IMG/VR virus record: IMGVR_UViG_3300025483_000098
Location: 1 to 20,213 of that record
From: a virus
Strand: one strand, 5' to 3'
Length of the DNA stretch: 20,213 nucleotides
Shown: piece after piece, positions 11,205-16,330 of the stretch
How positions within the stretch are numbered: the first letter of the stretch is position 1
Layout: each line of letters opens with the position of its first letter
Notes under the pieces: generated by a model
Database searches by the model: none
What the model saw: only the letters and a program-made list of their open reading frames with translations
What the model was told of the DNA's origin: nothing
Program-made: the position numbers and the translations under genes

Positions 11205-11858
11205 ATGGCGGTGCAACCTATTCGTCCCATCGAATTGATGGAGGACGAGAACATCACGCAATCAGAATTTCATGAGTTTATTGGAATCTGGAAAAATTTT
11301 ATGCCAAAAGTGCGTTGTGATAAATTTATTGAACACTTTGAAAAAATTAGATCTACTAGTTCTGTTCTTGAAAGTCCTGATCCAAAGGAACAAGAACTCA
11401 TGGACGGGACAACCCAATTTAAACAAGGAAGTCTCGGTAGAAGGGATGAATCTTTGTTGTTGAATTACTCTGATGCATCATTGAATTATGAGGCAAACCA
11501 GTATTTGACTGCATGTGTACAGCACTACATTAAAAAATATGATCAATTGAAGAGTGGTAGGTTTGTCTCTGAAGATTGTAAGATGCAAAAAACACCACCT
11601 GGCGGTGGTTATCACATGTGGCATTATGAAAATTCTGGGTTTGGACACCACGCTAGAGAACTTGTTTGGGCAATCTATCTAAATGATATGCCTGAGGGTG
11701 AAGCAGAAACTGAGTTTTTGTATCAGCGTAGAAGAATTCGACCCACTGCAGGCACTGTTTGTGTTTGGCCTGCATCTATGACTCACGTTCATAAAGGCAA
11801 CACAGTCTTTACTCAAGATAAATACATTTTGACTGGCTGGTATATCAGGGTTCCATAA
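11205..11858 (+). CDS. 2OG-Fe(II) oxygenase-like protein (oxygenase 1)
   Basis: 217 residues; a GAGG sequence overlapping the previous stop serves as ribosome-binding site. The C-terminal half has a double-stranded beta-helix signature: PPGGGYHMWHYENSG (131-145), with His140 and Glu142 as the metal pair, then a distal His at 194 or 196 (THVHKGN) and KYILTGWY (206-213), where Lys206 may bind 2-oxoglutarate. The usual HxD is HxE here, which some members of the superfamily use. The N-terminal ~120 residues are helical and unrecognised. The protein would hydroxylate or otherwise oxidise a substrate using Fe(II), O2 and 2-oxoglutarate. The substrate is unknown. It is the first gene of the coupled cluster to 16330. 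Confidence 0.78.
   Translation: MAVQPIRPIELMEDENITQSEFHEFIGIWKNFMPKVRCDKFIEHFEKIRSTSSVLESPDPKEQELMDGTTQFKQGSLGRRDESLLLNYSDASLNYEANQYLTACVQHYIKKYDQLKSGRFVSEDCKMQKTPPGGGYHMWHYENSGFGHHARELVWAIYLNDMPEGEAETEFLYQRRRIRPTAGTVCVWPASMTHVHKGNTVFTQDKYILTGWYIRVP
11817..11824 (+). promoter_or_regulatory. Possible T4-type late promoter (GATAAATA)
   Basis: GATAAATA matches the NATAAATA late-promoter form of T4-like cyanophages (TATAAATA in T4). It lies 34 bases upstream of ATG 11858, inside the end of oxygenase 1. An 8-mer inside AT-rich coding DNA can arise by chance, so this is a weak call. Confidence 0.28.
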
Positions 11859-12805
11859 TGGCAGAATATTTCTATCAACAACCAACCGAGGATGAGGTAA
11901 GAGAATTTTGGTCTAATACTGTTAGACCAAAAGAATCTGTTATGGAGTTAAATTTTGCCGAAAAAGCTGTCACTCTTGGTGGTGTTGCTCTTGGTGGACA
12001 AACAACTTTTGTTGATGAAAAAGCATGGGAAGATGTTGTGCTACCTGCAATCTCTTCAGAGTGGCATGACCCAGGTAAAGATGAAATCGAACATTTACTT
12101 CTCTACAACAATGACAAGTATTTGTGTCAACGAAAGAAAATCAAATATGATTTTGCAACAGAATCAACATATTGGGTAACATATAATTATACTGATGGTG
12201 ACGTTACAGATGTAAAAAGAATTTATGACGTTATCAATGCAGTTGTAGTTGTACAAAAGGAAGTAAAAGAATACGAAGTTCTTGAGAAAGCAAGAGAGTT
12301 GAATTTAGAGCAACTTGATTATTATTATGATCACAAGTGGTTCAAGAAAATGGATGAAATCCAAAAAATGTTATTGTATTCTGATTTCAGAGTTCTTCCT
12401 GATACACCAGTAAAGTATGATGGAGAGAAAGAGGACTGGGCAACTTGGAGACAGAGACTTAGAGACTTGCTCCCAGGCAATCCTAGAGAAGAATTTGCTG
12501 ATAACTTTGAAATGTTTAAGTTCATTCAAACATTAAAGTATCCTATTGATCCTAGGAAATATCTTGCCATATACCCTAATCGTGATGTAGAATATCTGTC
12601 TACAGACGATCAATTCCAAAAATATGATTTTGAAGCATCTGTAGATTTCGTATCAAAAACGCAACTCAATCTCATTAACTATCTTGAGACATATGATGCT
12701 AACTTCAGACCTATTGACAGAAAGATTTTAGATCTTGCAAGAGAACTGAAGTTGGATGAAGTCTTTGATAGGTTTAACTTCGCTAAATTTATGCCTACCG
12801 ATTAA
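11858..12805 (+). CDS. Protein with tail-assembly-chaperone-like segment
   Basis: 315 residues, coupled to oxygenase 1 by TAATG. Residues about 165-206 (MDEIQKMLLYSDFRVLPDT, then DWATWRQRLRDLLPG) resemble the phage tail assembly chaperone family in which an LLxxSDW-xxxPD stretch is followed by W-xx-YRQxLRD. The N-terminal ~130 residues are mixed alpha/beta and the C-terminal ~100 are helical; neither is recognised. In many phages this short motif occurs in small proteins encoded next to tail fibre genes. A role in fibre folding or attachment is a reasonable inference. Being embedded among oxygenases suggests the cluster acts on tail parts. Confidence 0.55.
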   Translation: MAEYFYQQPTEDEVREFWSNTVRPKESVMELNFAEKAVTLGGVALGGQTTFVDEKAWEDVVLPAISSEWHDPGKDEIEHLLLYNNDKYLCQRKKIKYDFATESTYWVTYNYTDGDVTDVKRIYDVINAVVVVQKEVKEYEVLEKARELNLEQLDYYYDHKWFKKMDEIQKMLLYSDFRVLPDTPVKYDGEKEDWATWRQRLRDLLPGNPREEFADNFEMFKFIQTLKYPIDPRKYLAIYPNRDVEYLSTDDQFQKYDFEASVDFVSKTQLNLINYLETYDANFRPIDRKILDLARELKLDEVFDRFNFAKFMPTD

Positions 12806-12806
12806 T

Positions 12807-15169: not shown

Positions 15170-15744
15170 TACTTGGTGACTTTGTACATGAATATAAACT
15201 TGACAACTACGAACAACTTAATGATTCAGTCATCGAATATCTCTACAAACTAAGAGATGGTGAGGAGAAATCTGATCGCTTATCAAATATAAGAGGATGG
15301 CAAAAGAATCACCTTGAGAAATACCCAGAACTATCTGAATTTAGTTCTGCTATCTTTAATGAGTTTCATGATTTTGTGGTTAACCATTTAAATCCACTGA
15401 AAAAGTTATCAATATATCTTGGTAACATGTTTGCTAATGTTAATCCACCTGGAGCATATCATCTACCTCATGTACATGATTGTCATTGGACTGGTGTATA
15501 TTATTTGCAGGCAGATGAGGACTCTGGATCTCTGTGTATTCAAAAACCACACCAAGGTCCATCACAAGCAGAGCAAACAAAGTTCTTTGCTAATGTTAGA
15601 TTAGAGCATAAGTTTGTTCCTGTACCAGGAACAGGTTATTTCTTTCCATCGCATCTTGTACATTATGTCGAAGAGAATTTATCACCACGAGATAGAATCT
15701 CTGTAGCATATAATATTACAATCACAGAACAAAATGATATGTAA
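15166..15744 (+). CDS. 2OG-Fe(II) oxygenase superfamily protein of the 2OG-FeII_Oxy_5 type (oxygenase 4)
   Basis: 192 residues. The segment NVNPPGAYHLPHVHDCHW (91-108), followed by TGVYYLQADEDSGSLCI (109-125), matches a putative 2OG-Fe(II) oxygenase family whose signature is PG-x(3)-xxH-x-H, SGVYYL and a FPSxLxHxVxxN stretch. The last occurs here as FPSHLVHYVEENLS (160-173), with distal His166, and DRISVAYNI (176-184) supplies Arg177. The proximal metal ligands are less clear than in a normal HxD enzyme: His102, His104 and Asp105 are all candidates. N-terminal ~80 residues are helical. It overlaps oxygenase 5 by 11 bases. The substrate is unknown. Confidence 0.82.
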   Translation: MILGDFVHEYKLDNYEQLNDSVIEYLYKLRDGEEKSDRLSNIRGWQKNHLEKYPELSEFSSAIFNEFHDFVVNHLNPLKKLSIYLGNMFANVNPPGAYHLPHVHDCHWTGVYYLQADEDSGSLCIQKPHQGPSQAEQTKFFANVRLEHKFVPVPGTGYFFPSHLVHYVEENLSPRDRISVAYNITITEQNDM

Positions 15745-16330
15745 AATTCTTGACAATCAATTTGATAAACTATATCTACATCAAATAGCAGGACACATTA
15801 GTGAAATTCCACTTTCATATAATAACGTTGCTAATAGAACTACATGGCCATATGAGTTTGAAGGAACACACAAACTCTTAGGATGTAAACTGTTTCAACG
15901 TGGCAATGGTGTCAATAGAGTCAATACATGCCATGATAAAGTAGAACCATTCTTTGACATTCTTGAGCGTCTAGAAGAAGTGCTGAGTGCATATTTTTTA
16001 TGCAATCAGATTGGTTTGAATGTACAGTATCAAGGATTTGATGGTACAACTCACACAGATAGTGGAGATCCAAATGATATTACACTTTTGATGATGACTA
16101 ATCCAGAGTGGGACAGTTCATGGGGTGGACAATTCCAACTGACAGACAAAAATGGTGAGCATGTTGTTGAAGAGCATGAATATGTGCCAGGTAGAGTTAT
16201 TGTTCTACCATCGAAACATCCACATAGAGGGTTAGCACCTACCGTACCACATGTTTATCGCACGTCAATAGTCTGGCGAGTCACACCATTAGACTACTAC
16301 CTGAGAAAGAATTTTCCTTCTAGGTCTTGA
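15734..16330 (+). CDS. 2OG-Fe(II) oxygenase, prolyl 4-hydroxylase-like (oxygenase 5)
   Basis: 198 residues. The core is GTTHTDSGD (104-112), with His107 and Asp109. Next come ITLLMMTNPEWDSSWGG (116-132), which is the N-P-xW-xx-xWGG strand of this enzyme branch, and VPGRVIVLPSKHPHRGLAP (151-169), where distal His164 is followed by RG. YRTSIVWRV (175-183) supplies Arg176. All expected catalytic residues are present. Its start lies within the end of oxygenase 4. It is the last gene of the oxygenase cluster, and its TGA stop lies inside the -35 box of the next promoter. A related fold and motif spacing to oxygenase 3 suggests a common branch, though the sequences have diverged strongly. Confidence 0.87.
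   Translation: MICKILDNQFDKLYLHQIAGHISEIPLSYNNVANRTTWPYEFEGTHKLLGCKLFQRGNGVNRVNTCHDKVEPFFDILERLEEVLSAYFLCNQIGLNVQYQGFDGTTHTDSGDPNDITLLMMTNPEWDSSWGGQFQLTDKNGEHVVEEHEYVPGRVIVLPSKHPHRGLAPTVPHVYRTSIVWRVTPLDYYLRKNFPSRS

Follow-up and report, generated by a model that had tools for sequence, protein, structure and literature searches.

The virus fragment analyzed here, a stretch of 20.2 kb from the record IMGVR_UViG_3300025483_000098 (the window, in what follows), contains between positions 11205 and 16330 an operon of eight co-directional genes (A to H; Table 1), five of which (A, C, D, G, and H) code for 2-oxoglutarate (2OG)-Fe(II) oxygenases. The DNA of the window resembles that of T4-like Synechococcus phages, with Sf-CH1b as the top match (25% of the window covered, 75% identity), and the sequence identifies its source as a T4-like cyanophage (Kyanoviridae), a virus of marine cyanobacteria. 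Short tail-fiber/Collar and adhesin genes lie before position 11200, while beyond 16330 there are small genes for hypothetical proteins, together with one for an N6/N4 DNA methyltransferase.

Table 1. Genes of the oxygenase operon and of the preceding fiber region, with positions in the window
Gene or feature	Position	Strand	Matches and remarks
Tail adhesin/shaft gene	2648..4735	+	C-terminal repeats match short-tail-fiber family phrog_4924
Second adhesin/shaft gene	4735..6717	+	C-terminal repeats of same type as 2648..4735
Third adhesin/shaft gene	6717..9914	+	Glycine-rich domains, then repeats of same type as 2648..4735
Collar-domain short tail fiber	9916..11196	+	Pfam Collar 1.2e-10; phrog_4924 8e-90 (C-terminal half of family)
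Gene A, HxE-type 2OG-Fe(II) oxygenase, P4H-like	11205..11858	+	PF13640 E 6.8e-8; phrog_61
Gene B, tail (fiber) assembly chaperone-like	11858..12805	+	phrog_4697 (tail assembly chaperone) 1.3e-60; PF16778 below cutoff
Gene C, PiuC/PKHD-type 2OG-Fe(II) hydroxylase	12807..13448	+	PF13640 2.4e-16; solved PiuC 4.6e-38
Gene D, P4H-like 2OG-Fe(II) oxygenase	13435..13965	+	phrog_274 1.4e-26; PF13640 sub-threshold
Gene E, small conserved partner of B	13962..14300	+	phrog_4883; T4-GC 742
Gene F, PT-barrel (ABBA aromatic-prenyltransferase-fold) protein, predicted	14303..15169	+	T4-GC 743; AlphaFold2 model; dN/dS 0.08-0.15
Gene G, 2OG-FeII_Oxy_5 oxygenase, HxH...H...R site	15166..15744	+	PF13759 4.2e-14
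Gene H, P4H-like 2OG-Fe(II) oxygenase, this sub-lineage	15734..16330	+	PF13640 5.1e-7; phrog_274 3.8e-17

Overlaps between stops and starts, pointed out in an earlier note on this DNA, amount to 1 to 14 nucleotides (nt) at five of the seven junctions in the operon (A-B, C-D, D-E, F-G, and G-H), and the genes are 1 to 2 nt apart at B-C and E-F; for C and E, the starts at 12807 and 13962 were preferred over the longest open reading frames (ORFs). None of the eight genes has an internal stop, and all are under purifying selection, with ratios of nonsynonymous to synonymous substitution rates (dN/dS) of 0.05 to 0.15 in nearly all pairs with the related loci L020 and L022. Gene G and its counterpart in L020 (9639-10217) share just 56% identity, against 93 to 98% for the other seven genes, an apparent allele replacement of one oxygenase. 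A scan for the late-promoter motif TAAATA found no excess, and terminator-like sites were found only inside genes, where they are not readable as operon ends.

The five oxygenases

The branches proposed in the earlier note (HxE type for A, PKHD for C, prolyl 4-hydroxylase [P4H]-like for D and H, and Oxy_5 for G) are borne out by Pfam or phrog matches and by intact sites. A, C, G, and H exceed the cutoff of their Pfam family models; D scores 23.6 bits against a cutoff of 27 and keeps HxD...H...R. Among relatives, the metal and 2OG-binding motifs are nearly invariant: HxE in 97/97, the distal H in 96, and K in 96/96 for A; HxD, H, and R in all 79 for C; HxD in 64/64 and H in 63/64 for D; HxH, H, and R in 14/14 for G; and HxD, H, and R in 8/8 for H. 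To judge from these motifs, all five are intact, divergent 2OG-Fe(II) oxygenases, presumably active.

A profile search of solved structures placed gene A closest to the Bacillus anthracis P4H group (E 3.8e-7), gene C to PiuC over its full length, gene D weakly to OGFOD1 and PHD2, and gene G to two uncharacterized PF13759 proteins, so that for A and, weakly, for D the closest solved relatives are protein hydroxylases. No match to the AlkB or TET/JBP Pfam models was obtained with any of the five up to an E value of 0.1. The two PF13759 structures share with gene G and its relatives the HxH that is HxD/E elsewhere, a possible three-histidine iron site. The name "DNA endonuclease V" attached to the families of D and H turned out to be wrong, as these are PF13640-type proteins with HxD...H...R; more generally, motifs and Pfam matches identify phrog_274 and phrog_2297 ("DNA endonuclease V" and "DNA endonuclease") as families of 2OG-Fe(II) oxygenases, and the label persists in many cyanophage records.

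Linkage to fiber and chaperone genes

Loci were collected with A and single B proteins as queries. Of the A loci, 98 extend far enough downstream to show the next gene (at least 95 distinct records, retrieved mostly by similarity to A alone), and in every one of them (98/98) this gene is B, at a spacing of -34 to +12 nt. In a second set, obtained from a distant A, B follows 30 of the 31 genes scoring at least 240 bits. On the other side, a gene with a Collar domain precedes A in 42 of 43 cases.

Gene B belongs with the assembly chaperones both by its family match (phrog_4697) and by its fiber-gene neighbor. Its structural model (predicted local distance difference test [pLDDT] of 84, predicted template modeling score [pTM] of only 0.57) gave no significant match in the PDB and no fold shared with a solved chaperone. 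The pair B-E also occurs at 55 loci (S-WAM2, Sf-FR1, and relatives) behind other fiber genes and with no oxygenase at all; hence, the core is one of fiber assembly, with A, C, D, F, G, and H as accessories around it. The sets found among 68 distinct B loci extended from B-E, via A-B-E, A-B-C, and A-B-C-E, to A-B-C-D-E-F and A-B-C-D-E-F-G-H. Since A, A+C, and A+C+D all exist as subsets in relatives, a strictly ordered pathway, such as the successive hydroxylation given as an example in the earlier note, is unnecessary and disfavored, and the enzymes look modular instead.

The arrangement fiber-A-B-C-D-E-F is kept in S-PM2, Syn1, S-RIM32, S-CAM1, S-CAM3, and S-CAM4, and also in ACG-2014e, ACG-2014i, ACG-2014j, Sf-FP1, Sf-CH1a, and S-H9-2, and the order C-D-E-F is retained at protein identities of 12 to 50%. 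By sequence comparison, then, the cluster is not unique and its core is widespread in known cyanophages, although several records annotate it piecemeal, with D as "DNA endonuclease V". No paper describing the fiber-A-B-C-D-E-F block as one unit was found in the literature searched; as a unit, the operon of oxygenases, chaperone, and PT barrel thus appears to have gone undescribed there, while the cluster itself is not new. Oxygenase content also varies with the type of fiber: C goes with non-glycine-rich fibers in 46 of 50 loci, loci devoid of C have glycine-rich ones in 13 of 18, and F was never found with a glycine-rich fiber (37/37 non-glycine-rich). These counts include some noise from fibers cut at contig ends (two loci), and the raw Fisher p of 4.5e-7 is confounded by descent, which leaves the association suggestive.

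Some relatives of A outside this block have fiber-like neighbors as well. In S-TIM4, ORF23 is of the A family (E 3e-62) and is directly followed by a tail-fiber-family gene (ORF24); the latter was tested as a homolog of B and is not one. ORF23 was mutated in a host adaptation experiment that hit mainly tail and baseplate genes, and its product was not particle associated, the authors reading it as a nutrient stress gene (PMC6224464); absence from virions is as expected for an enzyme acting off the particle. Only four A-family relatives were detected in 84,980 species genomes, so that A is mainly a viral family. One of them, in a gammaproteobacterial genome bin (L247, 1872-5570), sits directly behind TonB-dependent receptor genes; the others are near a weak tail-fiber match (L248), next to a sugar dehydrogenase (L249), and near a collagen-repeat protein (L250).

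Some further arrangements of oxygenase genes were seen. In S-RSM4 (NC_013085), about eight such genes form a second, equally separate group at ~89.4-95.1 kb, densely packed and distant from the fiber block. In another phage group (ten loci), C-like and A-like genes are in tandem, some pairs being close to a tail-fiber-assembly-like gene. Among the long oxygenase ORFs (two 401-amino-acid proteins aside), none was fused to a fiber or chaperone domain.

Gene F and the fiber genes

Gene F gave no sequence-family match, including to known prenyltransferase families, and was approached through an AlphaFold2 model (pLDDT 83, pTM 0.84); the alignments behind our models were drawn from the window and IMG/VR sequences. 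The model has ten paired strands alternating with helices. In a Foldseek search against the PDB, the first 31 matches, and nearly all of the next few, were aromatic prenyltransferases or PT-barrel relatives, the best one with an E value of 6.9e-6 and a TM score of 0.48. Among the viral structures of BFVD, the strong hits with named hosts were confined to ACG-2014e, S-RIM44, S-CAM3, S-CAM1, and S-RIM32, and these are positional homologs (TM 0.47 to 0.72 at 11 to 14% identity); homology with the cyanophage positional homologs is backed by profile comparison (hhalign E 4e-11). The polar strand residues H23, Y25, R192, K263, K265, and Y277 are invariant in the group of the window, not across all F proteins. 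A PT-barrel fold is thus predicted for F; the protein might be an enzyme that has diverged, or else a binding barrel. We rejected filing it as a prenyltransferase, a label for which the fold is the sole basis.

As for the fiber genes, the three adhesin genes (2648-9914) break off at the same position within an Ig-like repeat (...SITIG/SITVG stop). The Collar gene, in turn, opens with NTSWTVTT, resembling the last strand that is missing from those repeats. Together, the four genes correspond to one phrog_4924 fiber gene of other cyanophages, i.e., a split fiber, whose pieces are perhaps joined by strand complementation.

A possible role in fiber maturation

On balance we lean, if only slightly, toward an explanation in which the oxygenases hydroxylate the adjacent fiber proteins during folding, F perhaps modifying them further. 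The locus would then be a tail-fiber maturation operon of T4-like cyanophages, built on a core of fiber gene(s) and the chaperone-like pair B and E, with modular hydroxylases around it (A placed ahead of B, the pair C-D separating B from E, and G-H at the far end) plus F. Production of the block would be coupled and take place during late infection, and the oxygenases would work in the host cytoplasm on the newly made Collar-domain fiber, the presumed main substrate, and/or on the neighboring adhesins. B and E would hold or fold the fiber while A, C, and D (here also G and H) hydroxylate specific side chains, proline-like sites being likeliest for A and D. F would bind the fiber or modify it further, and hydroxylation would tune its stability or receptor binding. 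Tail proteins had already been favored as substrates in the earlier note because of the location of the genes. The invariable A-B pair, the Collar gene before A, the B-E core, and the fiber-like neighbors elsewhere strengthen that link beyond what was then known, and the conserved catalytic residues, the purifying selection, and the nearest solved proteins (protein hydroxylases and PiuC) also favor the explanation, while the chemistry is something that we infer.

Several observations weigh against this explanation. Most oxygenases of these phages are elsewhere: about 55 of 170 in 19 genomes (hand-merged count) are in the block and some two thirds are not, which limits the explanation to the fiber-linked group. 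One A-type gene of 240 bits has no B behind it, phages of the S-WAM2 and Sf-FR1 types assemble their fibers via B-E without A, C, or D, and no collagen repeat was found in the tail genes of the window. Adjacency, moreover, can mirror a place in a gene-rich region rather than a substrate. The association with fiber type is not significant on the B tree, which has about 5 to 6 changes each of C and of fiber type and four well-supported independent pairs, each of which either agrees with the expected direction or is neutral; hence, we count it as weak support only.

If the locus were a hot spot behind the fiber genes that gathers unrelated accessory genes, each oxygenase could have a role of its own, perhaps directed at the host. 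The variable genes downstream of the block, the confounding of the fiber-type association by descent, and the many oxygenases elsewhere in these genomes would fit. However, A and B are inseparable over all eligible loci despite wide divergence, and the order C-D-E-F has persisted through a divergence not expected of exchangeable hot-spot genes, which leaves this passenger scenario unlikely. Small-molecule metabolism seems rather unlikely as well. PT-barrel enzymes usually prenylate small aromatics or peptides, and the enzymes might make or modify a surface sugar or a small natural product, F being the prenyltransferase. Alternatively, they could oxidize a host metabolite or draw down 2OG, in line with the published idea of 2OG/NtcA nitrogen signaling (PMC3037559), and jumbo cyanophages do have a 10-gene cluster with 2OG enzymes and a predicted role in secondary-metabolite synthesis (PMC7824862). 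Nevertheless, the operon contains no other biosynthetic gene, its linkage is to fiber and chaperone genes, and bulk 2OG turnover would call for no set of divergent enzymes in fixed order.

AlkB- or TET-like repair or modification of phage DNA we regard as very improbable here. DNA repair was proposed for cyanophage oxygenases near uvsX/uvsY (PMC2984593), a proposal repeated in PMC9146016, and one might add the DNA methyltransferase 3 kb downstream and the endonuclease names that some databases give to D- and H-type genes. Yet the lack of AlkB-type matches, along with that of TET/JBP ones, led us to reject it as the first explanation; besides, the structures solved so far that come closest belong to protein hydroxylases or to PiuC, and the constant neighbors are fiber and chaperone genes rather than repair genes. 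DNA repair and 2OG/nitrogen sensing thus suit this locus less well than fiber modification. An extended version of the latter, in which several hydroxylases add hydroxyls to trimeric receptor-binding fibers and F, as a divergent transferase, goes on to attach a prenyl-like or different group, all coupled to the fiber chaperone, strikes us as quite unlikely. Phage adhesins would then bear a post-translational code for which the literature searched offers no phage precedent; no paper on fiber hydroxylation or on phage prenyltransferases in fibers was found there.

Cyanophages have many 2OG-Fe(II) oxygenases, about nine in each of the genomes counted here (hand count), and 24 are reported for S-SCSM1, as cited in PMC10665884. 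In the literature searched they are assigned to DNA repair (PMC2984593) or nitrogen metabolism (PMC3037559) without direct tests. The fixed tie of one group of them to fiber and chaperone genes offers a directly testable claim. Were fiber hydroxylation true, phage enzymes would chemically modify phage receptor-binding proteins in dependence on iron, oxygen, and 2OG, and host recognition would be tied to host physiology in iron-poor oceans.

Comparison with known systems

Among the systems most similar to the operon is that of Synechococcus phage Sf-CH1b (PV340850). None of the eight genes is missing there and their order is unchanged, with protein identities of 48 to 75% for A, B, and F, but downstream the phage also has a sixth oxygenase as well as different genes. 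The block of S-PM2, Syn1, S-RIM32, S-CAM1/3/4, and ACG-2014e/i/j (T4-GC 740, 240, 741, 28, 166, 742, 743) shares genes, order, and the short-tail-fiber neighbor, whereas the lineage of the window adds G and H (of which the S-PM2 type has a G-like gene only) and encodes its fiber in separate pieces.

Outside phages, bacterial P4Hs of the B. anthracis type (3ITQ, 5HV0) are the best solved relatives of gene A, although the metal motif of that group is HxD and that of A is HxE. The PKHD-type hydroxylase PiuC (9GHL, 9QN1, 3DKQ) matches gene C over its full length, but the phage gene is in a fiber operon and has no siderophore receptor gene beside it. By its predicted fold, gene F resembles ABBA/PT-barrel aromatic prenyltransferases (AmbP3, NphB, CloQ, KgpF); it differs from them in having no sequence-family match and in polar strand residues that vary among F proteins. 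Viral hydroxylation of structural proteins is known from the modification of collagen in mimivirus. That is a giant virus of amoebae with a collagen substrate, and no collagen repeat was found in the window, but if the explanation favored here is true, in both cases a virus would use 2OG enzymes of its own to modify a fibrous protein that it also encodes.

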